This document shows, piece by piece, positions 3,013 to 58,991 of a DNA stretch of 64,000 nucleotides. Origin of the DNA: Diphasiastrum complanatum. Lineage: Eukaryota > Streptophyta > Lycopodiopsida > Lycopodiales > Lycopodiaceae. Every line of letters begins with the position of its first letter. Positions within the stretch are counted from its first letter, which is position 1. The position numbers and the translations under genes were made by a program. Below the pieces are notes generated by a model. The model saw only the letters and a list, made by a program, of their open reading frames with translations, was not told the DNA's origin and did no database searches. Where the stretch lies: positions 36,295,078 to 36,359,077 of the forward strand of contig CM055095.1 in NCBI GenBank assembly GCA_029204225.1, read 5' to 3'.

Positions 3013-3327
3013 TGGAACCAAGTGAAAGATTGACCACTTCAAATTATTCAATTTGGAAAATGAGGATGGAGTCCATCTTGATCCTTCAAGACGTGATTGA
3101 CATAGTTCTTGTCCTTGAAGAAGAACCACAAGTTCTTCAAGAGGTTCAAAAATACAAAAAGAGAGCTAGGATGGCTCTCCACTACATTAAGATGAATGTC
3201 TCTAATAAGATATTGAGAGAGATAGGTACTTGTACAATAGCCAAAGAAGCTTGGGATTGTCTCAAGACTATCTATGAGGCTAAGAATACCTCTAGGCTTC
3301 TCACTCTTAGGAATCAAATCTTTCAAA
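2985..3327 (+). pseudogene. Copia gag, N-terminal third, truncated at an inversion junction
   Basis: The frame starting near MSSMGSSLLEPSERL encodes the copia gag N-terminus: SNYSIWKMRMESIL, then a segment related to UBN2-type gag (MALHYIKMNV, EAWDCLKTIYEAKN). Gag similarity stops at LRNQIFQ near 3327. From there the + strand runs into the reverse complement of the rest of the same gag. The open frame to 3419 is therefore chimeric at its end. Confidence 0.85.
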
Positions 3328-4065
3328 TCTTGAGCTTGCATGATGAAGCATTAGAGGAATCATCTTCCTCCTCATCTTTGTCTTTGGATTTGACTTTGTC
3401 CTTGCTTGAGGATTGTTGATGTTGGTTCTTGCTCCTCTCTTTGTGCTTATCCTTGGCAAAGAGAGCTTTGCCATCATTATGAGTGAGAGAAATCTTGTCC
3501 ATCCTCAAGAGCTTGTACTCTTGTCTTGATTCTTCTGAAATTAGCACACTTTGGAGAGCCTCCAGACTTGGTAGCTCCTCCTTAATGGCATAGGATTGGA
3601 CAAGATTATCAAATTCACTTCTCAAGCCATTGAGAATGACTTGAACTAGCTCATTTTGATTGATGGAATCACCAATACAAGCAAGCTCTCTATGAATATC
3701 TTTTACTCTCAAAACATAACTAGATGCACTCTCATCACTCTTTTGGCTACTTTGAAAGATTTGATTCCTAAGAGTGAGAAGCCTAGAGGTATTCTTAGCC
3801 TCATAGATAGTCTTGAGACAATCCCAAGCTTCTTTGGCTATTGTACAAGTACCTATCTCTCTCAATATCTTATTAGAGACATTCATCTTAATGTAGTGGA
3901 GAGCCATCCTAGCTCTCTTTTTGTATTTTTGAACCTCTTGAAGAACTTGTGGTTCTTCTTCAAGGACAAGAACTATGTCAATCACGTCTTGAAGGATCAA
4001 GATGGACTCCATCCTCATTTTCCAAATTGAATAATTTGAAGTGGTCAATCTTTCACTTGGTTCCA
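3013..4065. repeat. Perfect inverted duplication of gag (315-bp arms, 423-bp spacer)
   Basis: The left arm, 3013-3327, and the right arm, 3751-4065, read as exact reverse complements everywhere I compared them, and their translations are identical. The spacer 3328-3750 holds the remainder of the minus-strand gag. A transcript across it would fold into a hairpin of about 315 bp. Identical arms suggest a young rearrangement, such as a strand switch during reverse transcription, or gene conversion between the arms. Confidence 0.9.
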
Positions 4066-4066
4066 C
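3323..4066 (-). CDS. Copia gag open frame, minus strand
   Basis: A 247-residue open frame reads from MEPSERLTTSNYSIWK to a lysine/acidic-rich tail (KDKVKSKDKDEEEDD). It matches the gag of the element at 56337 in order and length, up to just before the CCHC knuckle. No stop interrupts it. The rest of the element is not in continuity: the sequence to its right (4066-4088) is short unexplained DNA, then an LTR scrap. Confidence 0.85.
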   Translation of the reverse strand: MEPSERLTTSNYSIWKMRMESILILQDVIDIVLVLEEEPQVLQEVQKYKKRARMALHYIKMNVSNKILREIGTCTIAKEAWDCLKTIYEAKNTSRLLTLRNQIFQSSQKSDESASSYVLRVKDIHRELACIGDSINQNELVQVILNGLRSEFDNLVQSYAIKEELPSLEALQSVLISEESRQEYKLLRMDKISLTHNDGKALFAKDKHKERSKNQHQQSSSKDKVKSKDKDEEEDDSSNASSCKLKI

Positions 4067-5808: not shown

Positions 5809-7200
5809 TTGAGTGAAAGTAACAAATTGGACGGGATTTCCAACTATGCAGTGTGGAAATTCAAAATAAAAAACATACTGATGGAAAAGGACGTGGGGAT
5901 GTTCACAGGTGATGAGAGAAGGCCGCCAAATGATGTGAACATCAAAGTGTTCGACAAGGTGGTGAGAAAAGCTTTGACCTTCATTAACTTGTCAGTGAAG
6001 GATCACATCATTACCCACATTTGTGATGATATTACACCCATACAGGCATAGGATGTGCTAAAAGAGCAGTTCGAGATGTCAAATCCGTCAAGAATCATGT
6101 TTTTGAAGTCAAAACTGAATAGTGCCCGCATGGAGCAAGGAGAGCACATTCAGACTTATATGACTAGAATCAAGACAATGAGGGATGAACTGCACTCTAT
6201 TGGTGAGTGCATACGTGATGTGGAGCTAGTGCACAATGCATTGTGTGGCATTGCAGAACCCTATCAAATGTTTGTGAGTGGAATAATATCAAGAAAAAGA
6301 TTACCAATCTTTGACGAGCTCATAGGAATCTTGATGCAGGAAGAGCAACGACAAGAAATGGTGAAAGCTAGACATCAAAATATTGACGATCAGGCACTTG
6401 CGACACACCAAAAACAAGGCAAGGGCACGGGCAAGAAGAAGTCTAAACAAAAATTTGCCAAGACTCAGGAGGATGAGGGATCTTCCAGCAAGACCAAGAA
6501 GAAAGACAAGTGCTTCCATTGTGGTAAAAAGAGGCATCAAAAGAGTGAATGTCAGAAATTCCTGGCAGAACAAGACAAGGAAAAACCAAAGCAAGCAAGT
6601 AACCTTGTCGATGAGAGTGAGATTGAAGACTCTAGTATCTTCATATTAGCATTATCATCTAATCAAGATGATCAAGTGTGGTATATTGACTTGGGAGCCA
6701 CAAGACACATGACATGTAACAAAGATTGGTTTAGTAGCTTGAAAGTGTTGGACAATGGAACGTCCATTTCACAAGCAAATGGTGATGTGTGCAAGATCAA
6801 GGGAATAGGCACCGTTTCAATCCATATACCTGATGGCAAAAGCAGAATGATCAGGGAGGTACTTTACGTACCAAGTTTGAAGAAAAATCTACTTTCTGTT
6901 GGAGTCATTACTGATCAAAAGTTGAAAGTAGAATTTGCCCATGATTCTTGCTTTGTGAAGGATGTGAACCAAAAGTTCAAAGTTATTGTGGATGCTATAA
7001 GAGAGCCAAACACTAAATTGTACAGGTTGAATGCTACAATCAAGGGGCAACATGGACTTGTCTCATCCATTCCATTGAAAATTGAATTGTGGCATAAGAG
7101 GCTTGGTCACTTGAACTTAGGAAGCCTCAGTTTGATGAGAAAATTGGAAATGGTGAGAGGATTGCCTACGATAGAAGCTCACTTGTGTGCAAAACGTACA
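5809..7200 (+). mobile_element. Copia gag-protease-preintegrase fragment, plus strand, second family
   Basis: The gag begins ESNKLDGISNYAVWKFKIK. A TAG at 6049-6051 breaks it, and it continues in the 6055-7311 frame. It has a complete CCHC knuckle (CFHCGKKRHQKSEC), a protease motif changed from DSGA to DLGA (YIDLGATRHM), a pre-integrase segment (NLLSVGVITDQ) and LWHKRLGHLN. Copia similarity fades after about 7195. The altered protease and the stop argue against function. It lies head-to-head with the minus-strand gag that ends at 5808. Confidence 0.87.
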
Positions 7201-7949
7201 AAAAGGACCAAGAGTGGATTCTTATCTGATCCTCAAGAGGGATTGGTTGTTAGATTACTTGATCTATCAATCTACTTGAGATTAAGATCAATTCTAGATA
7301 CAAAATCCTAACAAGAACAATCATTAATTGAAGGTAGGTGTACTTTCTAGTTTCACACATGTGAAACACTCTCTGAGTACGGACTCCAACCTAAAAATCA
7401 AGTACACATTGATAGCACCTCAAAACAATCAAAACAAATGTAGACAAATGAAGAGAATCACTCAAAATTGCTTCCAAAACCAAGATTGGTGTCTCACATT
7501 GATTATGGCCAAATAAGCCTCTATATATAAACTTTTGGATCTCGAGGTACTGATCATGCATCAGATCTCACATGTGTGAGGATTCCTTGTCACCATCATG
7601 CAATTTGACACTTGGATCAAAACTTTTCATTTTGGGCATTTTTGGTCTATTTTTCTACTATATGGAGATCTTCATGGAAATCTTCTAGAAGCAAAAACTC
7701 ACCTACTTCAGCTATTTCCGCACATGTGAGCTGTCCTCTACACATGGGATGTGACACCTATTCAAAATATTTTGCTCATGCAATCATTAGATTGGTGCCA
7801 TGTGTCATATCTCTAGAAAACTAGTTTTTGGCCATTTTAGCCACTAGAACTTGAATTAAATCATATGTACAACATATATATGATTATGGTACATGAAAAG
7901 TACACTAGTTTCACACGTGGGAACAGGCTCCACACATGTGTGTGTCTAT
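7201..7949. other. Non-coding stretch with several CACATGTG-type palindromes
   Basis: No gene is seen. CACATGTG and CACACGTGG-like words recur (about 7355, 7570, 7722, 7916, 7933), as they do in the copia LTRs elsewhere in the window. It may be decayed LTR or leader sequence of that family. Confidence 0.35.
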
Positions 7950-14185: not shown

Positions 14186-15373
14186 TCATTTACATTTTTT
14201 TTTTTGCTTTTTCTTGAGTAGCCACTGTACTTTCAAGTGGCACCTCTTCTACAATTTTCTCGACTACAGTTACTACATTGTAATCTTGAACCAAGACATC
14301 AACAAATTCTCGTGTGTCGCCTACTTTTCCGCTAGCAGGAGGCTGAGGTTTCTTGGACAAGGGAATTATTGTATCCTCGCTGTCTAAACTCTTTTTTACC
14401 TCAGATAATTCATCTGGCAAAGTTGAAAGAGATTTCATTCTCATTTTTACAAAATCAACTAAATTAGTATCTAAATCTACTGCAGCAACATGTCTGCCTT
14501 TCTGAACAACACATGCGCTCGTAGTGCCGCTACCGCTAAATAAATCTAAAATCCAATCAGTTGGGTGAAAAAAAATATCAAGTAAATGATTAATTAATTG
14601 TTGTGGCTTTTGGTAGGAACAAGCCACGGAACCCATCATTGAATTTTTTAATTTCTTAGTCACAGCTGGATACTGGAACAAGTTTTCAAAACTTGTCAGT
14701 CCGAAAGTGTTGTAATGAAGCATCGAACGTTTGACATCCAAAGAATAATAACCGATGGTTATGTATTCTATTTCATTGCAAAGTCGAGCTCCTCCCGAGT
14801 TCCTGACATTGGGCTTGTACCTGACATGGAACATTACAAGTAAAATAAGTTTAAAATTTTAACTTTAAAATAAAAATATGAATCAAAATACAAATTAATA
14901 ATTCAGGAACTTAAAGACTTACCACACAACATTCTCTATTCCTGCATTACAGAAAGTTAGTAGAGCTTTATGTACTGATGCTGACTGTCAAGAAGAATGA
15001 AAAATAACAACTCTCCAAATTGGAGAAGTTGTGACTTCAAGAAAGCCCTGCATAAAACTATGGATTTCAGTGAATTTGAAAGGAGAATCATCATTTAATG
15101 ACTTCATATGGTATATCAACGATGTAGAGTATATAAGACCTTTTTTTAAAAAAATTTGAAATTTCTCTACAATCACCCTCCTCAACAGAGTAAAAGCATG
15201 TTGATCATCGACACTTTTGGGAAATTAGGTCTCTAATGGATCCTCCACAATTTTCTCACCCCGTGCAAATCTTTCCCTATCATTTTTTACTTTATTTTGC
15301 CTTCAGAATATGTCTCTTGAATTGCTCTGGAGGGACTTTGTTTTTTTTGTCTTCGGGAGACGGAAAAGGAAAA

Positions 15374-35400: not shown

Positions 35401-37200
35401 TCAAAATAAGGATGTTCTATTCAAGATGATGATGCTGTTATGATCTTGCTTTCTTCTCTTCCAAAGTCCTATGAGCACTTTGTGGTGATGATCTCCACAC
35501 AACTCGACCTCACTCTTCAAAAGGTGATCGATCATCTTCTTCAAGAAGAAATGCGGAGAAAAACCAGCGGCCTGTCCATCAAAGACAAATCCATGGCCCT
35601 GCACAACAAGAAGAAATACTATTCCAAGGGCAAGAATCAAGTGCAGCAGCAATAGCAGAAGCCTCACACTCAAGGTGAGCATGGTGGATTACGCAAGAAG
35701 CTTTTCTACAGATATTGCAAAAGAGCTAATCACCACATCAAGAAGTGTCGCATCAGGATCTACAACAAGACAAAGAAGCAACTTTAGCAGCAGCAGCCAG
35801 ACTCCTCCAACATGGTGGAATTCAAGGAGCTAGACACACATTTGTTAATGGCTTACAACAATAGTGAAGACTGTGATAGTTGGTACCTGGACAGCGGCGC
35901 TACGCAACACATGACCTCTCACAAGGAATGGTTTACGGAGTACACAGCTCACAACAAAGACCAATTCATCTACCTCGGAATTCTAGCACCATACGCGTGG
36001 AAGGCAAAGGAGCAGTGAAGATCAGCTTCAACAACGATCTGTCCATTTGTGTTCCCAACGTCCTTCACGTTCCTCAGTTATCAAAGAATCTGTTATCAGT
36101 CTCTAAGATAACTAATGAGGCTACACTATTACTTTTTTATCTAAGCAGTATACAATACTTGAGGAAGATACTACTCTGACTACATGCACTAGAGTCAGAA
36201 ATCTTTACGTACTCTCTAATTCAGTTGCATTAGCTAGTATCTCTAATGAAAATGTAAACAAAAGTGCTGTTTTGTGGCATAGTCGATTTGGACACGTGAA
36301 TACAAGATCACTTTCTTATATGCATTGTAATAATTTAGTTGATGGTTTGAATTTTCCGTCTTCATTAGATAGGAAATTTTTTTTTTGTGAATCATGCATC
36401 TATGGGAAGCACTCTAGAAGCAAGTTTCCAAAATCACACTCCATCAAAACAAAGCATGTATTAGATCTTGTACATAGTGATCTCTGTGGTCCAATGCCAA
36501 CCCCGTCATTAGAAGATGCAATCTATTTTATCACCTTCATAGATGATTATTCTAGATGGTCTACAACCATGTTCATTAAGAAGCCTTTGAAAGCTTCAAA
36601 AGATTCAAGGCCATGGATGAGACACAAACGTCTAAGAAAGTGAAGGCACTCCAAACTGATGGTGGCGACGAATACATCTCTAACGAGATTTTTGACTACA
36701 TGGCTAAACATGGTATTAGAAGATAATTCACGACTTCCTATTCACCTCAACAAAACGGAATTGTAGAAAGGAAGAATCGAACTCTTCTCAACTCAGCCAG
36801 ATCCATGTTACATCAAGCACACCTACCTGCGAAGTTCTGGGCAGAAGCTACTGCCACAGCTTGTTACGTGCAGAACAGATCCAACATCAAAGCCGTCAAC
36901 AACAAGACTCCTCATAAAGTTTGGCATGAGCACAAGCCTAGTGTCAGCCATTTAAAAATCTTTGGTTGTATATGTTTTGTTCACATTCCTAAACAACTTA
37001 GGAAGAAGCTGGATCATAGGACAAATAAGTTTATGATCCATCCACCAATGTAGTATTTGTCTCTAGGGATGTAATATTTCAAGAACATACATATTATGAT
37101 TTCAAACAGCCATCGATAAACGATGCTATGTCATTTCACCCTATTTTACGTAGCATGGATTCTTCTAACGTTGATGTTCCTTCTATAGTGTCATGTACTT
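35401..37200 (+). mobile_element. Copia gag-protease-integrase fragment
   Basis: Gag end (LLSSLPKSYEHFV, IDHLLQEEMRR), a knuckle lacking its first Cys (YRYCKRANHHIKKC), protease WYLDSGATQHMTS, pre-integrase (LSKNLLSVSKIT), integrase zinc finger (LWHSRFGHVN, CESCIYGK) and core (DLVHSDLCGPM, FIDDYSRW). A frame change near 36590 follows, then RKNRTLLNSARSML and the post-core KIFGCICFVHIPK. There are several stops. It may be the 5' half of the copia whose RT lies at 46.78-48.5 kb, with the 9-kb TIR element between them, though 350 bp of unassigned DNA precede that element. Confidence 0.85.
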
Positions 37201-37566
37201 TTAGTACATCAGTGCTTTTTAAGACAATATTATATCCATTGTAAGCTTTGTAGGCCGAAAAGGAGCTATTAGCCTTAAGAACAAGGCGGTTCCCGCTTTA
37301 GGCCCTTCAAAGTAACTAATAAGGATAATAGGCCAATAAGGGCCCAAATGCAGTTTGAATAATACTTAACAAGGGGTAACTATCCCTCAAGATAGTTAAG
37401 TTAAGCTAAGTAAGAGCATTGTCTATAACTAGGCAAGTCATTTTGTGAATCTTTTGGCTCATTTGCAAGTGAGAGCTTCTAGCTTCCTTGTGAATGTGAG
37501 CCATAAGGATCTCCATTGCTAGGTCTCATGTGCCCTATCCACATGAATCAATGCTCCATTTCATTA

Positions 37567-37599
37567 GGGGAAATATGGGCTCAAAATGGGCCCTTTAAG
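37567..37599 (+). repeat. Left TIR of the 9.0-kb element
   Basis: Starts GGGGAAATATGGG and contains CTCAAAATGGGCCCTTT. TA precedes it at 37565-37566. Confidence 0.85.
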
Positions 37600-37986
37600 A
37601 AATATCACTTTAGAGAGAGGTTACGTAGAGAGAGAATGCAAACCGGTAACTTTTGGTCGTCGTTTTCCGAGTTTTCGGCCTTGCCCGACGTTTAACTAGT
37701 ATGGTTAACTTCAGACAATGGTTAGTTTAGCATGAGATGTAATAACTTCTCTTCATGCTCGTTCCAAAATTTGGGACTAGAGCTTTAAGACTGAAAATCT
37801 TGGTGTGCTCAATGCAAAAACTGAAACGGGAGAGGCAAAACTTTTGAAATCACTATATGCTTATAGTGAAATATGAGGCGGGACGATTTTTCAATGCCAC
37901 ATAAACATTACAAAAGTAAGGAATGTTAGATCTATTCATATTGATTTATTGTAGGTACATTCATTTACATGATTGTAGCTTTAACA

Positions 37987-39830
37987 ATGGCAATGTTCCA
38001 TTTGCATGTTGCTCTTCCAATGGAATGCACTCCAATTATTAAGAAAAATGGGAAAGTTGTAGAGAATGTTGCAGCAACAGTTAGAGAATTGAGAATGAAT
38101 AATCATATGAATATAGATTTGTGAGTGGATGGATCAATTTATCCTAATGATCCAGCTACCAATTTGTGTCCAGATTTCAAGTCTGTAACTCATCTTCTCA
38201 GATATGTATGTGAAGGAAATAGCGGATTACTTGGATATTGTCAAAGGTTGCGTGACATTGGAATGCATAGCATATATTGTCTGAATCAACAATTACAGTT
38301 TGCTAATCAACAATTGCAACATGCAAATCAACAATTGCTTCATTATGTGCAACACACTAGTGCTGAAAACAATGCACTCAAGAATGCTATGTCAGAGTTG
38401 AATGCAATTGTCGCTACTCTTCGAGGATCAAACCAAGAAATGTTAGAATCCATGGAAAAGTTGTGATCCGAGAGTTTAAAATCTACTGTTGATCTAAAAG
38501 TTATCAATAAGACAATGATGAAGAGAAAAAAAAAAAAAGAGTACCGATGAAGAATATTGATGACCTATCTACACATAGTGGCAATCAGAAAAAAAGAATC
38601 TGAACATTCAAGTATGTTTTCATCTAAATTGTTTATTTGATTTGTATATGCCATTTAAGTTTGATTTGCACTTGATAACATGGATTATTTATTTATTAAA
38701 CATAATTTGAGTTTCATATGTTTGTTGCAGATCATGTTTGGTGGCAAAGAACTATTTAACAGATCGTTCATGCATTGGATCATCTTTAAGTCATGTTTTA
38801 CCAAGAGAGTCAACAAAGAAAATGATAAAAAATACTCGGTTTGAAAAAATGAAAAATGAAATTGTAGAGACTATTTTGATTAAGGTTCAATCATACTTGG
38901 ATGCGAATGTAATACAAGGTGCATGTGATGTATCTAGAATTAGCAGAAATGATTCTACTTTTTTTAGAATAGTTAAAGAAGCTTTTTCCCAAGTGATGGT
39001 GAAGAAAATTAATCTTCCGCGTCCATATCGGGTAAGATTAGTTAGAAATTTTTATAATGACGAAATGTTCAAAGTAGTTGGCCAACCACTTCATATAACT
39101 GAATTATACAAATCAGAATATGGTGAGCTCAATTACAACGATTGCAATAATATTTTCCTTGATATTGAAAATGTTCTAAAATACATTATTCGATTCTATA
39201 AACTAGACAAACATCAAGTAAATGGAAAGATCATTATTATAATAAAATTGGATGAATCTGAAATCATCAAGAGTCAGAAGTTGGAACGTGTGGGTGTCAC
39301 TTTGATGAACAAAATTTCAGATACAGATGATCGAACGTTTAGTGTTCAATCGGAAAATCACATATGGTGGTTGACGGCATTCTAGGTATACATTTCAATT
39401 TTCATTTAGAATATCTATATTAACAATTCATACCTTGCCAATTTTTACTGAAATGTCATGTATTACTTGTTTCTCTACAGGTCTTGAAAGAGGACCATAA
39501 AATACTATCATGGATATTTTCAAGAACAAATTATGGCGAGATTATAAAGAGACATTTGGAAGGTGAGAAATTTACAGTCGAAAACCATGGAAGTTTTCAA
39601 ATTCAATGGCACCTTGCAGGGGATTTGAAAACATTAAAATGTATGTATAATGTCTCTCATGGGGCAACATCAAAGCATCCATGTCTTTATTGCATGCATT
39701 AGAGAAAATTTAAGATTCAGACGGTTGGTATTGTCATGAAGGAATAATCTCCTTTCATATGGATCCAAAAATTCTAAATTTTTCTTCTTGCTCATATCAA
39801 TGTAACTCGAATAAAGGGCCATTGCAGATG
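37987..39830 (+). pseudogene. DDE-transposase-like gene, decayed and truncated
   Basis: Exon 1 (ATG 37987 to 38466) has a Gln/Asn-rich heptad stretch (NQQLQFANQQLQHANQQLL), a likely coiled coil. Exon 2 starts near 38732 and runs to 39385 with IIIIIKLDESEIIKSQKL and FSVQSENHIWWLTAF. Exon 3 from 39481 has FQIQWHLAGDLKTLKC and HPCLYCMH. An Asp in each of the last two blocks, plus a CxxC, fits the RNase-H-fold core of a transposase family. No third acidic residue was found before the gene runs into the neighbouring minus-strand gene. TGA at 38122, TAG at 39383 and TAG at 39700 each become sense if C replaces T. A shift near 39715 continues into DGWYCHEGIISFHMD. Confidence 0.55.
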
Positions 39831-39882
39831 ATCTTTTCGTAGTCTCAAAAGGTGTTAGGCAAGCATGCCAAGAGCCGTAGTC

Positions 39883-41259
39883 TTACTCAAGAAATGAAAT
39901 ACAATATCTATAACCCAATATCTTAATAGCCAAATCTGTCTTCACAAAAATTATTTTATATGTTCCTCTTGCATACTTATGGCCTCCTAAACAAACTGAT
40001 AATGATTTGATGGCCATAATGACAGTGGTTGCATATGGATTATAAGATGAATGATATATACAAATCTCATTATTTTGAAAGTTTTTCAAATAATGAGATA
40101 GAGAAACATCTTTTCTCCTAGCTGATACACCTCGGACGTCTCCATGTCTCATACCAAAGGCATCTACTTCAATAGCATCCTGTAAACGAGAAAAGAAAAT
40201 AAATTTAAAATGATACACAACACTGCAAACTCAATAAGAAAACTGAACAATATCAATACCAATATAATATCTACTTACCAGATCATAATCACCATAATCA
40301 ACGACGTTTGATCTGTTGATGTCATGTCCTCCAATGGCCTCTACATTTTCGGAGGGGATATATCTAGCCCTAGGAAGATATCTTTTTTGAAATTCCAAAA
40401 ATTCCTCCTCTGTAGGCAAAGTCTTTTCATAGGCTTTAGATTTTTCAATCATGGCCTCCAAGGCCTCATTGCCAGATTTCCAATTGTCATCTTTATCATA
40501 ATCTATCTCACTTTCAAAGTCATCATATGAGTAATCAACAATGTCAGAAAATTCTGATAAATTTTTGAGAGAGGATTTCATCCTCTCTTAAATTCAATAC
40601 ATCTTCTATATCATTAAATGAAATATAACATTCATTATTTATAAAATATAAAGAAACATCGAGTAGAGTTAATTGATTAACAGGAGATGCAGATGGAAGA
40701 GAATCAGAGAGGATTATAGAACGAGGGAAGTTTTTTAATAATCTGAAGTCACGGAAGCTTCAACTTTAACCCCTATATCAGTATCTGCATCAGTTACATC
40801 AACTGGAGTAGGTGTAGATGTTTCGATCAATGGAACAATTGAAGATTCAACCGACTCATCATATGGAATTTCAGCAGATATGTAGAACACAAAAGCCATT
40901 CCTTTGATTAGAAAGCGACATATTTTTTTGTGGATATCACAATATATATTTCTTTTGAAATGGTCATGCAAGGTAGAGTACTTTCTATTGTGTTTTTGCT
41001 TAGAGGATGGTTGGGAATGTACAAGGTCCTGAAAATGAACGAAACAAAAATTATCTATATCCAAAATAGGAGTACTACTAATCTGAAAAAAATTATGAAG
41101 ATAAGAAATTAAATTATAACGATTCTCATAAACTAGCTTATCGATATCGAAGGGAGCAAAAAAAATACTAGTAGAATGCCCTAATTTGTCAGATGGAATC
41201 TAACTCGTATTAAAAAAATCCATAAGTTTGTCATCTGAGGCCATGGAGGAACTAGCCAT
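39883..41259 (-). pseudogene. Unrecognised multi-exon gene of the TIR element
   Basis: The minus-strand start MASSSMASDDKLMDFFNT (41259) is followed by a TAG, then IPSDKLGHSTSIFFAPFD, VYENRYNLISYLHNFF and an acidic segment (TDADTDIGVKVEASVTSDY near 40740). Another exon (40581-40280) has SEIDYDKDDNWKSGNEALE and ends at a GTAAGT donor. The final exon (about 40180-39883) encodes AIEVDAFGMRHGDVRGVSAR, YNPYATTVIMAIKSLSVCLG and stops at 39883. It converges on the DDE-like gene and diverges from the H3-like gene. Family unknown. Confidence 0.5.
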
Positions 41260-42102
41260 ATTGAATCTGATATCGGTGCGATGCGTCAGATAGATATCGG
41301 TAGAGGAATAAAACAAAGTGCGTGCACTGATCCGATATGGTAAGGCCGAGAATGAAATTTTCCAAAAAGCACTGGTCAAAAGTGGCTGATATCGATTTGG
41401 CGCACCTGAATGATTGCGAGCATGCACAACAAGGGATGGCGCGCGTCGATTCAATATCGAGAGAATGAAGAAAAACAAGAAGACTAGAGAGTTTAGAATA
41501 AAAGACTACGGAATCGAAATATGGAAAGTGGTGCACATACTTATAGCCAATTCCTGTTGATCACAGTCATATATTTATCAAATAATGAATTGTGATTTAT
41601 AGCCTATATTTATCCACCAATAAGAATGAGACTAATTTGTACCTACGTCGAAATACATTAACTAGTCTAGTACTAGATTCAACAAATCATCATTAGACCT
41701 GCGCCAGAATACATTAAATAGACAATCATTAGTCTCCTAGAATAATCATTAAAAAAATTATAAATAATTGATTAATGGAAATCATTGAAAAACGTGAACG
41801 AGAAGAATTATTACAATCTCTCGTCCTATTTAAGCACCGTAAAGACGAAATTTTTTCTTTTGAGATAATGTTCATTCAGAACATTTTCATAAGTCTTTCA
41901 TTATGCGGTATGATTTTTCTGCGTATGGGATATCGGATCAGCGTGCCTGACAGATGATGTATTTGCTGCATTTGGACTGCGCGCGTCGAATCGCTATTCC
42001 AGGACCAAAATACTATCGACTCAGGTATCGCTTCGACACGTCCGACCTGAGGTCTGATCATGAAATCAACATTATCGCATGCTGATCCGCTACTACACAG
42101 TA
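41260..42102. promoter_or_regulatory. Divergent intergenic region with repeated GATATCGG motifs
   Basis: It lies between the minus-strand gene and the H3-like gene. GATATCGG occurs at about 41269, 41293 and 41929, GATATCGATTTGGCGC at about 41388, and CCGATATGG (partial) near 41330. The stretches GCGCGCGTCGATTC and GCGCGCGTCGAATC appear near 41440 and 41982. One more GATATCGG lies at 43670 inside the H3-like gene. Shared motifs on both sides suggest common control or binding by an element protein; this is inference. Confidence 0.4.
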
Positions 42103-44140
42103 ATGGCGCGGACCAAGCAGACAGCACGAGGGCATTCAAGTAAAATACCAATTTTAGGTGCGGGTCAGGAAAATTCACAACCACCACCTCGTCCACCACC
42201 ACCTCCTCCTAGGCCAAGGGGCAGAAGAAGAGACTCACCCTGGCTCAAGCATATTCGGAAGCTTCAGAAGACAAATAATCTTCTGATTCTGAAATCTCAC
42301 ATACAGAGGTCCATCAGGTAGGCGACAAGAAGTCTATCTACAGATGCAAGATGGATGGTAACGGCAATTGAGACGCTGCACACAGCATATGAGGATTTCC
42401 AGGTGAAATTTTTTTCTGATACTGTTGTTGCAGCTGTCCATGCCAAGAGAGTGACCATCATGCCCAAGGATTTCAACATTGTGTTCAGGCTTTGGGACAT
42501 ATATGACAAGTTTGCTGAATACTTTAGACATGCTCCTTCCTCTCCTTCAAAACAAGATTCAGAGAGGAGAAAACGAAAGCAATCTCAACCAACTCGGCTT
42601 GTTATTCGTATACAGAGCGGGAGTGTTTCAAAGAAGAGGAGGTCTCGCGACCCTCCATCTAAAGCGAGGGATTTTTCTAAGCCATCTCCTTTGAATACTA
42701 TTCTTTCTTCTAGGCATTCTCCTCCTAATTCTCCTCCTAAGTCTCCTTCTTCTCCTTCCACTCCATCTTTAACTTCTCCTGCTAAATCTTCCTCTCCTAA
42801 CCAATCTCCACCTCCTAAATCTCCTCCTCCTCCTAAACTCGTAAATATTAGTTCACGTCCTCCTGTTGTTGGAAGCGATTTAGATGATTTTGTTAGTGTA
42901 AAGGTAGAAGCAATTTTGAATGACAATTCCTTATGCGGTTTATCAGTGTTACTTCCGTCACCCCCTACACTTGCATGACCAATTGTTAAACACGTATCTT
43001 AAAGGTTTAGGTCCTCGATACAGTTTTAGAATGCTGAAGACCAATGCTGGTCTCCCCCTTTCTAGTTTAGATACTGGTGAATTAGAAAGTAGGGATAAAA
43101 TGCTAGGGGACAATGTAGGAGGTGGGGCAATTCAGTACTGGATGGAGTTCTTTTAGATCCCATTGTTTATAGATATTGCATTGTTTTCCCTTCAATTCAT
43201 GGCAGCATTTGATTTCCCTAATTTCAAAAGTTTGCACGATGATATGCTCCAATATGTCAGACTGGGGACTTTAATTCTCGTGCTGCCATACATAACAAAG
43301 AAAGTGTCTATTTTTCAGATTTTATTTTATTGAATTTTTTACACATTGATTCTCATAAATTTTTTGTTTTCAAATTTCGGTGATCATTGGAGCTTATACA
43401 TGTTGTCCTTGTACGTCAATGATGAGGGTGTGTAATCCAGTTTGTTTGAAGATGAACTCTATTACACACACACACACAAAATTGCCAAGACCCATATACA
43501 ATAAATACTAGAACTCTTTCCAGTACCAAATGCAAAAGCATACTCGAAGCTGAAAATGGTTGATGCAGAGGTATAAATATTTAATATCCGAGTTCGACGT
43601 GTCCTTGTAGTTATTGATTGGTTTATTTTCTCAACATGAGCGTTGATCTGATATTCAATAAAAAAATTTGATATCGGTTCGATGCGCGCTTGTTTCTGTT
43701 GTAGATTTTATTCTTACATCCTAAGCGTTGATCCAATATCTCATAATGTTCAAATTTGGATTCTACAGTCCTCCCAGCAGGTTGATTCTAGCTGTGGTTG
43801 GTATACCGTATGCAATGCCAAACACTTTTTTAATTGGCTTGCATTACAAGATGGACTTCCAAATTTGAAAGAGGTAATATTCGATTAATTACTTTTAATT
43901 GTATTTTTGTTTTTTCATATACAAACTCCCTTAACTAATCTTTGATTAATTACATTTAACTGTGTTTGTGTTTTTTTTCAGTCTAAATTCCCGAAGGTCT
44001 CCCCAATGGAGATAATGCACTTTAGGATAGAGACCATAAAGCTTGTGATTGAAAATTCATATCCAGTTGCAGTGGCCGAGTGTTCTCCACCCAAGCTACT
44101 TCCAACTGGAGAAATGGATTTAGAGATCATAGATAGTTGA
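42103..44140 (+). pseudogene. Histone H3-like domain followed by Pro/Ser-rich region and Ulp1/C48 protease-like region
   Basis: The frame from ATG 42103 starts ARTKQTAR, identical to the H3 tail through the Lys4 region; the usual Lys9 is Gly. A Pro/Arg-rich stretch follows, then IRKLQKTNNLLI (compare alpha-N of H3), helix-2 material (MVTAIETLHTAYEDFQ) and VHAKRVTIMPKDF at residues 112-124, at H3-like spacing. Residue 73 is TAG (42319-42321), where CAG would restore the reading. Residues about 136-291 are Pro/Ser/Lys-rich (SPPNSPPKSPSSPSTPS). The reading shifts near 42960 to DTGELESRDKMLGDN, then GDHWSLYMLSLYVND (43379-) and SQQVDSSCGWYTVCNA (Cys at 43793). These fit the His, Gln and Cys of Ulp1-type proteases. 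The last exons end at a GTAATA donor (43873) and 43982-44140. This copy is decayed. Confidence 0.75.
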
Positions 44141-44299
44141 TTCTGTTTAGATATTCGTCTCCCTTGATGTGGATGAGACACATGTACAAAATTTTTTAAT
44201 AGAAATATACTTAGTCTTTCTATGGTTGTTCTTACTTGTTAATTTTCCTCTTATCAATTCAGGTTATGATTCATTTATCTTCAATTTCTACTATTTTTT

Positions 44300-44530
44300 G
44301 ACATGTTTGTTTTTCATTGTCTTGGTCTGCCTTGCCTTTACCATGGTCTTTTTTGGATAAGTTCAGAATGATGATCTGATCGAACCTTTGCCATAACCAA
44401 TCCAAACATGCGACATTCGTTCACTTAGATTTGTTGCAGCAAAGCTTTGATCAGATCATCATCTGAACATATCCAAATATGTCAAGACAAGGACAATACA
44501 GACCAAGGCAATGAAAACCAAAAATACAAC
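44300..44530. repeat. Foldback repeat inside the TIR element
   Basis: Left 44300-44391 and right 44437-44530 are inverted copies. The best part pairs 'gatgatctgatc' near 44371 with 'gatcagatcatcatc' near 44450, and 'tcattgtcttggtctg' with 'cagaccaaggcaatga'. It may be a MITE that entered just 3' of the H3-like gene. Confidence 0.75.
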
Positions 44531-44567
44531 CGATATATACGAGACTTCAACAAGGGCAAGCGTCGAT

Positions 44568-44740
44568 TGTAGTGATCACTGGAGTTCAAGTGACTGAAGA
44601 TCTCCCCAATGAAGATAGTGCATTTCCTATAGGAGACAATGAATCTTGCTATCGAAAACTCATATTATTCAGTTGCAATTACATTGTGTTTTGCACCATG
44701 GAAATGGAGATCATAGAAATGAAAGAGCCTCATAGAAAAA
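44568..44740 (+). pseudogene. Diverged copy of the last exon of the H3-like gene
   Basis: GATCTCCCCAATGAAGATAG, then later GAAAACTCATAT and CAGTTGCAAT, parallel the last exon at 43990-44080 (CTCCCCAATGGAGATAATGC, GAAAATTCATAT, CAGTTGCAGT). It suggests a local duplication separated by the foldback repeat. Confidence 0.5.
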
Positions 44741-45158
44741 GTGGTTCATATATTTTTAAAAATGATGTATACAAAAAATTGTATTACATAATACAAAATT
44801 CCATAGTTCATAATCTATGGGTCTTCAATTTCGATGGATGTTCCAATGTCTTTGCATTTTATATGCTCTTCTTGCCTTATTCTTACCTGCACAAGAGAAA
44901 TTGTTTTAGTTATATATTTTATGAAACTGATTCACTTAGAAATAGAAAAAAAAGAATATTTTTATATGGCATAACGTACCTTTACACCATTCAATCAAAA
45001 TTGATAGTACTGAGGTAGATCGAATTGCAACATGTCTAGTTCTGATCGAATGTGATTGAGACACCAATCTTCCTCGACCTCAACCATTGCAAGAATGTTG
45101 TCATTTTTTTTTCACTGTTATCTGAAGTTCCTCTTGAGGGTTTATACCAAAATCTTGA

Positions 45159-46160
45159 TCAAGTGGCTTCCAAACATTTTTTGCATTTAATCCATCTTCT
45201 ATAATACAGCAGCAAAGTGAGCATTTGTTTTTTGATGTGATATCTAAATGTCATGGATGAGTAACATACTCTGCACTCAACTTGCTGATTTTGTTGTGTA
45301 TCCCAACCATCATCCAACAACTCAGCGATTATATCAGTACTCAAGTCCTTACAAATAAACATTGTTTTCATTCTCCGGACATTGCATTTGAAAAAAAATC
45401 AACAAAAATAGTAAAAGGTAGAAACCAACTTAATCTATTATTCTTTGATCTAGTGCTACATTTTAATATACTCTGAATATCAATATATAGCCTAGATCAA
45501 AAACTTTCTCAAATTGCTGCATCAGGAAATATCCATTCCTCACTCAAAAAATCTGACAAAGGATATGGCTCTAATCTACCAACTAAACCATTTTTATCAG
45601 GAAAATAGGTGTGATTATAAAAAAAACTCCTGACTCTAAAAGTGATTTTAAAGAACGACCTTTATATTGTAAAATACCGATATCCAAATGTATGACATCG
45701 ATTATTCTTACAATCGACTAAACTGATTGCCTTTCAAAGAAATTTGATGGATACAAATTTGCAAAACCAACAAAAACATCTCAAGAAAAATATAATTTAA
45801 AAATAATGCTAAATCTAAAAAAATTGAATTTGAAAACTTACAATTGCATTTTCTTCTATATTTCGGATTCAGATCATGAATGTTGAGCTCATTGTGAAAA
45901 TAAGCATGCTGAACTAAAACTTCCGTGATAGATTGACCGGTAGGTGATACTTTAAAATCCATTATCCTGCCTTTCCAAGAGCTTCTATATATGTTATCCG
46001 ATCTTTTTCTTTTTTGGAATGAGCCTTTTGCAGAGGGATGCATCAAGATCCATTGATATTTTCGATATATTCTTGGTATCCATTGATCTTCTGCATTTTT
46101 TTCATTGCAAATATTGATTGCATCAATGGTTCCTCTTGGTCTCCAATAATGTGTAGCCAT
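45159..46160 (-). pseudogene. Right-end gene of the TIR element, unknown family
   Basis: It starts MATHYWRPRGTIDAINICNE at 46160 and contains MDFKVSPTGQSITEVLVQHA before a GTAAGT donor near 45838. Later pieces give IVRIIDVIHLDIGILQYKG, LEPYPLSDF and, after breaks, WFLPFTIFVDFFS and DDGWDTQQNQQVECRVCY. It shares this block order with the gene at 61095-62004 (TGQSILEVLV, LDVIHSDIGKLQYRG, STRSKVIRLNWFL, ECRI). Conservation between two elements suggests a real protein needed by the element. Function unknown. Confidence 0.6.
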
Positions 46161-46554
46161 TAGTCAAAAATACGAGTACGCAAGCTGAGATCAGAGAGAA
46201 TGTAGAGATTGCGAGGTAAACCTAAGAATGACAAGAAAATGAGAGATAGAATAAAGAAAATGAGAGGTATACCTATAAATGACAAGAAGTTTCTTAACCA
46301 CAGTTTATGACTATTGACGTCAAATCAACCTCGAGTGAACAATGATGGGCAGCATAAGAGTATTCGGGTAGTAACTATGGTTCAATCACAATTGTTTGTT
46401 CTGCCCGACGAGATATTTGAAAATCACAAAAATTTGGCCGGAAAAGTTAAATACAGTTTCCGTCCGTCAACCACTGTTACAGTTTGTCACAGATGGACAC
46501 CATTCATTGGGACACATAAGCATTGAAAGCGTGCGAAGTCAAAAACAACATCTT

Positions 46555-46587
46555 GACAAAGGGCCCATTTTGAGTTCTAATATCCCC
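46555..46587 (-). repeat. Right TIR of the 9.0-kb element
   Basis: Read on the minus strand it starts GGGGATATTAGAA and contains CTCAAAATGGGCCCTTT. TA follows at 46588-46589. Confidence 0.85.
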
Positions 46588-46749
46588 TAATGTCATTGAT
46601 TGTACTCTTTTTGTTATTGCTAATGCAATTCCATTGTGATCTCATTGTTTCTAGATTTATATGGATATGCTATTTTGAATGCTTTGTACTTTTTTTGCTC
46701 TTAGCTTTACTTCCATAGTAATTGCAATTTGCTTATATTTGGCACATGA

Positions 46750-56336: not shown

Positions 56337-57080
56337 ATGAATTCAATGAGTTCATACTTTTTGCAACCAAGTGAGAGATTGTCTACTTCCAATTATTCAA
56401 TATGGAAGTTGAGGATGGAGTCCATCTTGATACTCCAAGATGTGATGGACATTGTACTTGGGATTGAGGAGGAGCCTCAAGTCCTTCAAGAAGTACAAAA
56501 ATACAATAAGAGAGCTAGGATGGCTCTCCACTACATTAAGATGAATGTCTCTAATGAGATATTGAGGGAGATTGGTGATTGTTCTACATCCAAGGAATCT
56601 TGGGATTGTCTCAAGTCCATCTATGAGGCTAAGAACACCTATAGGCTCCTCACTCTTAGAAATCAAATATTCCAAAGTAGTCAAAAGAGTGATGAGAGTG
56701 CATCTAATTATGTTTTGAGAGTCAAGGATATTTATAGGGAGCTTGCATATATTGGTGACTCAATCAATCAAAGTGAGCGAGTCCAAGTCATTCTCAATGG
56801 CTTGAGAGATGAATATGTCAACCTTGTCCAATCCTATTCCATTAAGGAGGAGCTACCAAGTTTGGAGGACCTTCAAAGTGTGCTTATTTATGAAGAATCA
56901 AGACAAGAGTACAAACTCTTGAGGATGGACAAGCTATCACTCAATCATGATGATGGCAAAGTTCTATTTTCCAAGCACAAAGAGAGGAGTAAGAAGCAAC
57001 ATCATCACTTCTCTAATGACAAAGCTAAAGACCAAGATGGGAGGAGGAGGATACCTCTCATGCTTCTAATTCAAATCTCA
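56337..57080 (+). pseudogene. Copia gag with late frameshift
   Basis: MNSMSSYFLQPSERLSTSN, YSIWKLRMESILILQD, MALHYIKMNVSNEILRE and LRVKDIYRELAYIGDS follow the usual gag order. Near 57035 the frame is lost. In the neighbouring frame the reading continues EEEDTSHASNSNLKKKK into the knuckle, so a single small indel separates gag from pol here. The rest of the open frame to 57401 is out of frame. Confidence 0.88.
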
Positions 57081-57084
57081 AGAA

Positions 57085-58100
57085 GAAGAAAATCAAGTGC
57101 TTTTATTGTGGCAAGAAAGGCCATTATGCCAACAATTGCTTCAAGAAGAAGAATCAACTCAATCAAGCCAACATCACCAATGAGAAAGAAGACTATATTG
57201 CAAGTGATGGAGAAGGCTCTCTTATGGCATCAAGCTTCTCCTCTCCCGCCTTCAACAAGGATGACTCATTGTATATTGATAGTGGAGAATCTTCACATAT
57301 GTGTGGCTCCAAGCACTCTTTTTCATCTACTATGCCTTATGATGGAGTCAAGAAGACCATATACATTGCAAGTAAGCATGAGTGCAATATTGAAGGAGTA
57401 GAGATTATTCCCTTGAAGCTTGCATCTTCCAAAGATCTCTTTCTCAACAATGTTCTTTTTGTCCCAAAGCTTACAAAGAACATCTTAAGTGTTGGCCAAC
57501 TTCTTGATAGTGGCTTTGATGTCAATTTCAATATTGACAATTGTGTGATCAAGAAGGATGGTGAGATCCTTGCATATGGATCAAGATTTGAAGGCATCTA
57601 CAAATTGGATCCAAGTGAGAGTGCAAACTCTCTTAATGTTTCTTATATGTCCAATATTTCAAAGGAGGATGATCACACAAGATGCACATATCTTCTCTCT
57701 TCAAGTATTATGGTGTATGATTATTCCTTATTATTCAAAGCATATGTTGAGAAGAAATTCTCATTGAGGATCAAAGCTTTGAGGAGTATTGGAGATCTTG
57801 AAGAAATAGCACCATATGAAGTTTTATTCAAGATGAAGCCTAAGGTTGATCACCTTAGTGAACTTGGTAGTGCTTGCTTTGCACATATTCCCTTGAAAAC
57901 AAGAAGGAAGAATGATCCAAGCTCATGGATCATGATTGGATACTCATTCATCAAGGAGGACTTTAGTGTCTTTACACTCTCTATTTCAAAAGTGATTGTG
58001 AATAGAGATGTCACATTGCATAAAGATTCAATCTTGGAAGTTATCTTTTTTGAAGGTATTCAAGTTATGATGGGGCCAATGTGTGAGGAGGAGTTTCTTC
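57085..58100 (+). pseudogene. Copia knuckle, protease and deleted integrase
   Basis: The reading starts with the CCHC knuckle (CFYCGKKGHYANNC at 57098), then protease YIDSGESSHM, where the usual Ala is Glu. Pre-integrase NILSVGQLLDSGFD follows. The integrase core is collapsed: TRCTYLLSSSIMVYD and KKFSLRIKALRS join directly to EIAPYEVLFKMKPKVDHL, skipping the catalytic Glu region. The frame runs to 58339 but copia similarity fades after about 58080. Confidence 0.85.
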
Positions 58101-58991
58101 TTCATATGATTTCAAGAAGATCTTCAAGATGCATGGCCGAGTCTTTATGGCTCACCTTACATGGCAAAGAGGGGCATCTTTCATGTTGTATCTACTACAA
58201 CACATTCATATATGCTTCTCTTCCTTTGCTTGAAATGCTATCTTGCTTCATTGAATTTTTTGGATCTCAAAGTTCAAGAAAAGCTATACTAGTTTTGTAT
58301 GATGCTTATGGTACATGTTTCTTGTCATTATTGACTTAGATGTGTTTCCAATACTTTTTTAAAGCAAGATATTGCATTGTCAAAAGTATGCTCCTGGTTC
58401 TAGTAAAAACAAGATTGAGCTCGGTACTCACTTTTTTGAAAATCATGTTTTCACATGTTTTGAGGCAAATTGTAAACTCCTCTTGAGATTAAGTGAAGCA
58501 TCCAAAGTGGACACTTACATCCTTGAGAGAGTAACTAGCCTAAAAAAGATCAAGATAGATATCAAGATTAGATCCATCATGGATATAGTTCATTGTATGT
58601 GGACTAGTCAAGCTAGAAAGCATAATCTTGATAATCATCATTGTTTCACATCTTACGATCTTGATCTCCATAATCCTTATGAGGCTTGGAAGCCTCAGAT
58701 TTCTCTATTTATGGTGCATCATCCATCATGCAAGTGGAACTCTCAAAGCAAAGATCATCATCAATCATGGAGGAAGCCCATGATCATAGTGGCATATTGG
58801 TGGAGCACTCTTCAAAGGCATTGGCAAGAGATCTCTACCAAAGAGATCTTATCATGGATATGGTGAGGGTGCTGCTATGATGGATCCCTTGGCTGATCTT
58901 CACTTCTTATGCATACCAAAGGATCCACTCAAAAAAATTTACAAACTTCTCAAGTGATCTAGTACCTTTCCAAGCTATTTTTGAGGAGGAG
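58101..58991 (+). other. Unassigned interior DNA in place of RT/RNase H
   Basis: Several open pieces exist (58372-58866, 58686-58880) but none show YVDD, FAPVAKM or RNase H motifs. Words such as EAHDHSGILVEHSSKALARD and DLYQRDLIMDMV have no family I recognise. It could be captured or heavily decayed sequence. Confidence 0.5.

Follow-up and report, generated by a model that had tools for sequence, protein, structure and literature searches.

A remodelled histone H3 gene carried by terminal-inverted-repeat transposons of Diphasiastrum complanatum

The nearest precedent for a transposable element with its own histone H3 is found in fungi, where hAT elements of Pyrenophora tritici-repentis, and of Pseudocercospora fijiensis and its relatives, carry a captured H3 gene (PMC6710886). 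For P. fijiensis the passages on these repeats give 471 that carry H3, with all of the captured copies inactivated by RIP (PMC6710886). In the passages that treat these systems both the carriage of H3 by fungal elements and element-encoded proteins that act against silencing, such as VANC and TET/JBP, are already known. A transposon lineage that keeps a remodelled histone of its own under selection was not found described in the open-licence literature.

Here we follow up an H3-like frame that an initial annotation had picked out in a stretch of 64,000 nucleotides from D. complanatum (the window, which means this whole stretch). The elements to which it belongs are, like the fungal ones in the passages that describe them, DNA transposons with terminal inverted repeats (TIRs) that bear H3-derived sequence at high copy number (PMC6710886).

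The H3-like frame of the window and its element

The frame lies at 42103-42978 on the forward strand, opens with MARTKQTARG and carries HAKRVTIMPKD as residues 113-123, and the coordinates and motifs given for it are right, as are the presence of Gly rather than Lys at residue 9 and of a Pro/Ser-rich stretch downstream. Its proposed homology to H3 is borne out, with 49 of 131 residues identical (37%) and one gap (tblastn, E=3e-19), and with an alignment score of 192 against a mean of 31.7 (SD 4.8, maximum 56) for 1000 shuffles, the H3 query in these comparisons being a sequence entered by hand. The Pfam Histone profile (PF00125) is significant at 2.7e-9 over 42322-42978, the part after an in-frame stop, and reaches 2e-19 on the H3-like gene of L021, another copy of the same family.

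As a working gene the frame at 42103-42978 does not hold up, it is closed by a TAG at codon 73, which the initial annotation had missed and where 21 of 24 aligned rows of the family have CAG (the 24 include L002 and L027, which are one and the same copy). This TAG is a C-to-T change at a CHG site, the kind of change that predominates in the family. The stop at 42978 is not the natural end either, as in copies L024 and L021 the frame continues into a protease-like region, and a deletion near 42978 shifts the reading frame of the window copy. With its in-frame TAG, its frame-shifting deletion and further missing segments the window copy is therefore a dead, broken pseudo-copy.

The frame sits inside a decayed element of 9.0 kb (37562-46592) that belongs to a high-copy family, here called family A, and the TIRs mentioned by the initial annotation are indeed present at 37562 and 46592 (Table 1). 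The exact 38-mer of the left end occurs 158 times in the genome and the exact 35-mer of the right end 351 times, with 0 occurrences of the reversed control in each case. Amongst 20 fetched family-A copies the right end is common to 7 and the left end to 2, with unrelated flanks, the left end is also visible in copy L022 after a further fetch, and copies L009, L019 and L037 begin at the equivalents of 37559-37562. Family A thus has TIRs that bound many copies in unrelated flanks, which is what defines a DNA transposon. A search with the H3-like part in the 1.74-Gb genome of the window itself gave 150 scored places (E ≤5e-71, 76-100% identity) from 7579 loose candidates, and by hand count the matched H3 stretch is free of stops in 42 of the 150 and holds a stop in the other 108. 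Some of the 150 rows, on small contigs, look like duplicates.

Some members of the family have taken other forms. An element of 2.6 kb (G000:C1:37350780-37353349) has both exact family-A ends, it is probably an internally deleted, non-autonomous derivative. In the copy at L009:4657-6330 the H3-like frame continues in frame into an inserted copia polyprotein, giving 558 codons without a stop.

The window holds other repeats in addition to this element. Pieces of copia retrotransposons are found at 7-1476, 6055-7311, 36119-37244 and 56337-58339 on the forward strand and at 3323-4066 on the reverse strand, and the H3 element is flanked by copia pieces on both sides. The frame at 14190-14834 (-) encodes an N6/N4 DNA-methylase domain (Pfam PF01555, 4.2e-11) and matches the RsrI and CcrM methylases in the PDB at 2e-5 to 6e-5. 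This frame is itself a repeat family, with all 150 scored places matching out of 3440 candidates, and represents a second high-copy chromatin- or DNA-modifying gene in the same genome.

Three H3-carrying families and a protease fusion

The H3-like gene is distinct from the normal host loci, of which 13 are full-length, ordinary H3 loci with 97-99% identity to plant H3. The host H3 at L030 has Ala31, Tyr41, Ser87 and Leu90, which we take to combine residue states that in flowering plants belong to the H3.1 type and to the H3.3 type. The H3 profile and the element ends support the proposal of a strongly remodelled, H3-derived gene inside a TIR-bearing mobile element. Of the capture as it was first put forward, the placing of H3 in an element stands and the idea of a single capture in a single element does not, as H3 is carried here by a system of high copy number that comprises three families or more. 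The initial annotation also lacked the fusion to a C48-like protease, the shared order of the genes, the absence of a target-site duplication and the selection on the H3 domain.

A search of the genome with plant H3 found many places at 44-57% identity, and of the eight that were fetched seven (L046, L047, L049-L053) belong to family B and one (L048) belongs to family C. Family B encodes a protein of 300-400 residues with the H3-like core at its end, it starts with ARTKQTAR in L046 and ARMKQTAR in L052 (the other loci stop short of the start), followed by a long Ser/Gln/Pro-rich extension and then the core with its H3-like ending, and a fused protease is absent from the stretches read. The Pfam Histone profile matches family B at 3.1e-28 and family C at 7.5e-25. 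With L048 as the query, family C gave 119 scored places at 78-100% identity out of 9623 candidates, 26 of them stop-free over the matched frame by hand count, and a complete element of 8.0 kb with the ends CATTAGAGG and CCTCTAATG is present in L054 and L055.

Families A and C have termini of the same CATTAG.GG type and a common gene order, with a transposase-like gene (+) followed by a gene that we call gene 2 (-) and by the H3-protease gene (+). In a count that drew on 150 transposase rows, at least 11 of the 119 H3 rows of family C are preceded, 3.55-4.09 kb upstream and in the same orientation, by a transposase row. The H3 domains of the three families have 38-50% amino-acid identity to one another (41% between A and C), and dS is saturated both between A and C and between A and B. 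Position 47, which is Ala in H3, is Trp in all 18 rows of A, B and C in our alignment A2, and this shared residue favours a single common origin of the H3 gene in the three families. Two scans of viral contigs, one with alignment A2 and one with the L054 transposase exon, found no relatives.

Table 1. Features of the family-A element in the window
Feature	Position	Strand	Basis or remark
Left terminal inverted repeat CATTAGGGG	37562..37596	+	inverted pair with 46558-46592
Transposase-like gene, coiled-coil-like N-terminal exon	38125..38466	+	open frame
Transposase-like gene, partly decayed exon containing VNGKIIIIIKLDES	38711..39385	+	similarity to L054
Transposase-like gene, first part of the exon containing WHLAGDLKTLKCMYNVSHGATSKHPCLYC, truncated by a deletion	39424..39702	+	similarity to family C
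Gene 2, several broken frames in window copy	39883..41257	-	open in pieces
Deletion junction, ~0.5-0.9 kb lost upstream of H3 start	42019..42020		gaps against other copies
Histone H3-like domain, codons 1-131	42103..42495	+	H3 alignment, Pfam; TAG at 42319-42321
Pro/Ser-rich linker	42496..42978	+	constraint not detectable; stop at 42978 after frame-shifting deletion
Putative C48-like protease, first part	42979..43303	+	out of frame with H3 here; in frame in L024, L021
Putative protease exon 2 with DHWSL, by analogy the motif of the catalytic His	43382..43429	+	same post-intron place in A and C
Putative protease exon 3 with QQVDSSCGWYT, by analogy the motif of the catalytic Cys	43769..43873	+	similarity to family C
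Probable last exon	43982..44140	+	open frame past acceptor-like AG
Right terminal inverted repeat CCCCTAATG	46558..46592	-	7/20 fetched copies stop here, flanks unrelated

The three transposase-like exons of the window all have counterparts in family C. The start of the first resembles L054:393-713 (49% over 51 aa, 1.4e-14), the second resembles L054:1283-1732 (48% over 134 aa, 6e-39) and the third is 62% identical to family C over 206 aa; a separate comparison of A with C gives 61% for a transposase exon. Other family-A copies are longer by around 0.84-1.03 kb between 39696 and 39709, with about 1 kb of this gene having been deleted from the window copy. In both A and C the protein has no match to a Pfam DDE superfamily above the cut-off, it matches no PDB sequence except for one match at chance level, and the fold predicted for the exon is of low confidence (mean pLDDT 38.2). 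Around its CxxC and glutamate motif the protein may have some likeness to RAG1/Transib, an impression formed by eye on which we base no claim. Gene 2 of family A resembles that of family C, which lies at L054:3082-4632 (-), with 47% identity over 146 aa (2.8e-34) and, in a separate comparison of part of the gene, 44%. There is no Pfam match above the cut-off for it in either family, and six of the seven family B loci have a relative downstream of H3 on the opposite strand.

In families A and C the H3 domain is fused to a protease-like region. The H3 frame of copy L024 spans 404 codons, up to ...LVLPYIKK, and in both families an intron at the identical place is followed by DHWSL and then by a later exon with [D]SxSCGWYT. 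Exons 1-3 of family C, when spliced into a query joined from two copies, match Pfam C48 (PF02902, Ulp1) at 5.4e-7 with 30.1 bits against a cut-off of 20.7, and the part of family C that lacks exon 3 has no Pfam match. The family-A protease has none either in repeated profile searches, it does match that of family C (blastp 4e-15; 28% identity in the first protease part, 54-55% over 38-41 aa in exon 3), and on this match it is probably also C48-like, with Pfam alone being negative.

The tail of these proteins retains its start and little else of H3. All 24 family-A rows have AAG as the Lys4 codon, and the start reads ARTKQTAR in A and in B (L046) and MDRKKQTRR or MDRRKQTRR in C. None of the A rows (12) and C rows (2) in alignment A2 has a Lys at tail positions 9, 14, 18, 23, 27 or 36, with the tail of family B compared only in part, and a Lys is found near position 14 in the window copy and in L002. 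Within the core all 18 rows of the three families retain D106, H113, K115, R116, V117, T118, K122 and D123, and 17 of them R83, the KRVTI[ML]PKD motif is nearly invariant across A, B and C, and R40, T45, R63 and K79 are changed in most rows of A2. In H3 the residues R40, T45 and R63 contact DNA, and the conserved positions that are kept here have roles in DNA and H3-H3' contacts. A centromeric histone was considered and rejected. CENH3 has no HAKRVTIMPKD and a longer loop 1, and the present proteins keep KRVTI[ML]PKD, with a loop 1 of H3 length in A and B that is one residue longer in C.

By sequence, copy L024 matches PDB chains with a best value of 5.2e-19, and the 60 chains listed out of 175 all have names of H3 types. 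An AlphaFold model of exon 1 of the H3-C48 gene is of low confidence (mean pLDDT 37.7) and places helices at 46-57, 64-78, 86-115 and 121-141 as in H3, and the best 15 Foldseek matches of this low-confidence model are H3-containing entries, all with E above 0.001 (1.3e-3 to 3.8e-2).

Insertion sites, and selection on the family-A H3 domain

No target-site duplication is present in five family-A copies (the window copy, L022 and three with both exact ends) or in one family-C copy, a fourth both-ends pair of family A being a duplicate that was left out of the count. Duplications of 9, 8, 5, 3 or 2 bases were ruled out by a check by eye of the copies with both ends and then by empty sites. The joined flanks of the family-C insertion lie inside copia and read through in frame, a search for this empty site gave 40 of 40 scored places that span the join, 7 of them matching 151/151 bases, and for the family-A copy at C3:74.36 Mb again 40 of 40 scored places span the join, 35 of them matching 81/81 bases. 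As these empty sites are ungapped, insertion adds the element alone, with no target bases duplicated.

The lack of a duplication sets the elements apart from MULE, hAT, CACTA, PIF/Harbinger and the other superfamilies that make one. Plant MULEs with Ulp1-like genes are DNA transposons that bear a C48 protease, as the present elements do, and unlike these they produce duplications of around 9 bp; we know of no H3 in a MULE. Spy, of the PHIS superfamily, was rejected as there is no AAA/TTT insertion, the junctions being GAAAC|ACATG, GCTCC|AGAGC, GCAGA|CAAGT and ATTGA|TAGGC.

Selection on the H3 domain was assessed over codons 1-131 in 23 family-A copies by setting changes present in at least two copies (shared changes) against singletons, since singleton changes are mostly neutral decay and shared changes arose in the lineage as it spread. 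Singleton transversions number 44/622 nonsynonymous (N) and 12/164 synonymous (S), a ratio of 0.97, and shared transversions number N 2/622 and S 15/164, a ratio of 0.04 (Fisher test against singletons, 1.05e-6), with the tail (0.05) and the core (0.03) in agreement. The protein sequence of the H3 domain in family A is under purifying selection. Shared transversions show no constraint in the linker (N 21, S 7) and an intermediate ratio of 0.25 in the first protease part (N 7, S 5), and shared synonymous changes mark out clear groups of copies.

The shared transitions of the H3 domain speak against this reading, with N 47 and S 22 their ratio is 1.03. We attribute this flat ratio to recurrent CG/CHG deamination at saturation, as, of the deaminations possible in the H3 region of the 23 copies, 35 out of 50 nonsynonymous ones and 13 out of 22 synonymous ones are common to several copies. 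When deamination is excluded the shared transitions are few, N 2/124 and S 4/71, and lean toward constraint. Abundant shared CG/CHG deamination is as expected of heavily methylated repeats. The other family-A genes give a weak or flat test (shared transversions of N 8 and S 1 for the N-terminal part of gene 2, N 2 and S 0 for transposase exon b), and codon-phase periodicity over 13 copies (the window and 12 loci) gives no signal, as post-insertion changes dominate.

Possible roles of the element H3

That the histone sequence is protected by selection suggests that the elements use it on host chromatin, and most likely the element H3 would act there against silencing. Our preferred reading, to which we give not quite an even chance, is of a TIR lineage with a standing, remodelled H3 of its own that acts on host nucleosomes or chaperones to keep chromatin open or to guide transposition. 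The H3 part may pair with the H4 of the host and with a partner H3, and could then be built into host nucleosomes or held by them or by H3 chaperones, such that it may bind or mimic nucleosomes as was originally suggested. A tail with Lys4 in the ARTKQTAR context and with Lys9 and Lys27 missing would for that reason be unable to carry the plant H3 silencing marks. The attached protease may strip SUMO, or process proteins, at sites occupied by the element H3. From these steps we infer deposition in nucleosomes, an action on SUMO and anti-silencing, with a net outcome in which the chromatin of the element would stay open or the transposition machinery would be guided to chromatin. A bolder form of this proposal is tentative and somewhat doubtful. 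It would make these elements a new group of plant transposons, and also a superfamily of their own whose transposase is unrecognised and which leaves its target sites unduplicated. Such a group would build or edit its own chromatin by means of a private H3 that keeps Lys4 and cannot receive H3K9 or H3K27 methylation, and of a SUMO-protease-like enzyme that strips SUMO-dependent silencing nearby.

It is also conceivable, if rather unlikely, that the H3 domain works outside nucleosomes as a chromatin adaptor for H4, chaperones or readers of the H3K4 end, thereby bringing in the protease and the transposase or picking insertion sites. The joining of H3 to an enzyme in A and C would fit with this, as would the retention of an ARTKQTAR-like start with the loss of the remaining tail, and both of the cases that were closely examined (the window and L054) are insertions within other repeats such as copia. 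However, such insertions may simply mirror the share of copia in the genome, the nucleosome-facing segment is conserved as much as the start of the tail, and family B has an H3-like C-terminus with no fused protease in the stretches read. A protein that is never deposited on element DNA and instead acts in trans, tying up H3 chaperones of the host, H3K4 readers or silencing factors throughout the genome, would account for the retention of D106, H113, D123 and R129, which face the H3-H3' contact and chaperones, next to a strongly altered tail, but the fused protease points to a catalytic role and we regard titration as improbable.

The element H3 may on the other hand do nothing at all, a host H3 having been taken up once and hitch-hiking since, with all copies decaying without function as in the fungal hAT elements. 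The window copy and most scored copies do carry stops or deletions (a stop in 108 of 150 family-A rows), singleton changes look neutral at a ratio of 0.97, and the capture of H3 by transposons is known from the passages on those fungal elements (PMC6710886). Yet the shared transversions of the H3 domain stand at 2N:15S, H3 recurs in three families whose H3 domains have 38-50% amino-acid identity, and 26 of 119 family-C rows are stop-free over the matched frame, which leaves such a simple capture with a poor chance. Least probable of all, and by our estimate very improbable, is that the H3 part is a DNA- or protein-structural piece of a polyprotein matured by the C48-like protease, its link to chromatin having been lost. 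R40, T45 and R63 and many H4-facing positions are altered in family A, as would be expected in that case, but loop-2 KRVTI and PKD are almost unaltered in all three families.

If the element H3 of our preferred reading does enter nucleosomes, it would amount to a natural experiment on which residues of the H3 tail are needed for silencing, with Lys4 still in place and Lys9 and Lys27 gone. The domain is also of a size that allows its direct expression and testing.

Compared with the fungal hAT elements, which have a transduplicated H3 and 8-bp target-site duplications in the passages that describe them, the present elements have no duplication and no transposase that Pfam recognises (PMC6710886). 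Unlike the fungal H3 of those passages, the present H3 has 37-52% identity to H3, is fused to a protease in two families and is under purifying selection in family A (PMC6710886). Spy, of the PHIS superfamily, is described in the relevant passages as a TIR element that likewise makes no target-site duplication (PMC4482050), it has an AAATTT preference and a PHIS DDE transposase, whereas the present elements have no AAA|TTT and no Pfam transposase match (PMC4482050). Viruses provide a further case of an H3-like protein encoded by a selfish element, with tails that are sometimes altered (PMC9145170); these are DNA viruses and not TIR transposons, and the passages of that review that concern them do not mention a protease fusion (PMC9145170).

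VANC of the Arabidopsis VANDAL elements is, in the passages on it, likewise an accessory protein which the element itself encodes and which is thought to influence its chromatin state (PMC5735166). VANC is a sequence-specific DNA-binding protein that causes loss of DNA methylation and is no histone (PMC5735166). Fungal transposons with TET/JBP dioxygenases and oomycete elements with SET domains also carry genes for chromatin or DNA modification, probably against silencing, in the passages that treat them (PMC12730594). Those elements encode modifying enzymes, whereas the present elements encode a histone that resembles the substrate of such enzymes (PMC12730594).
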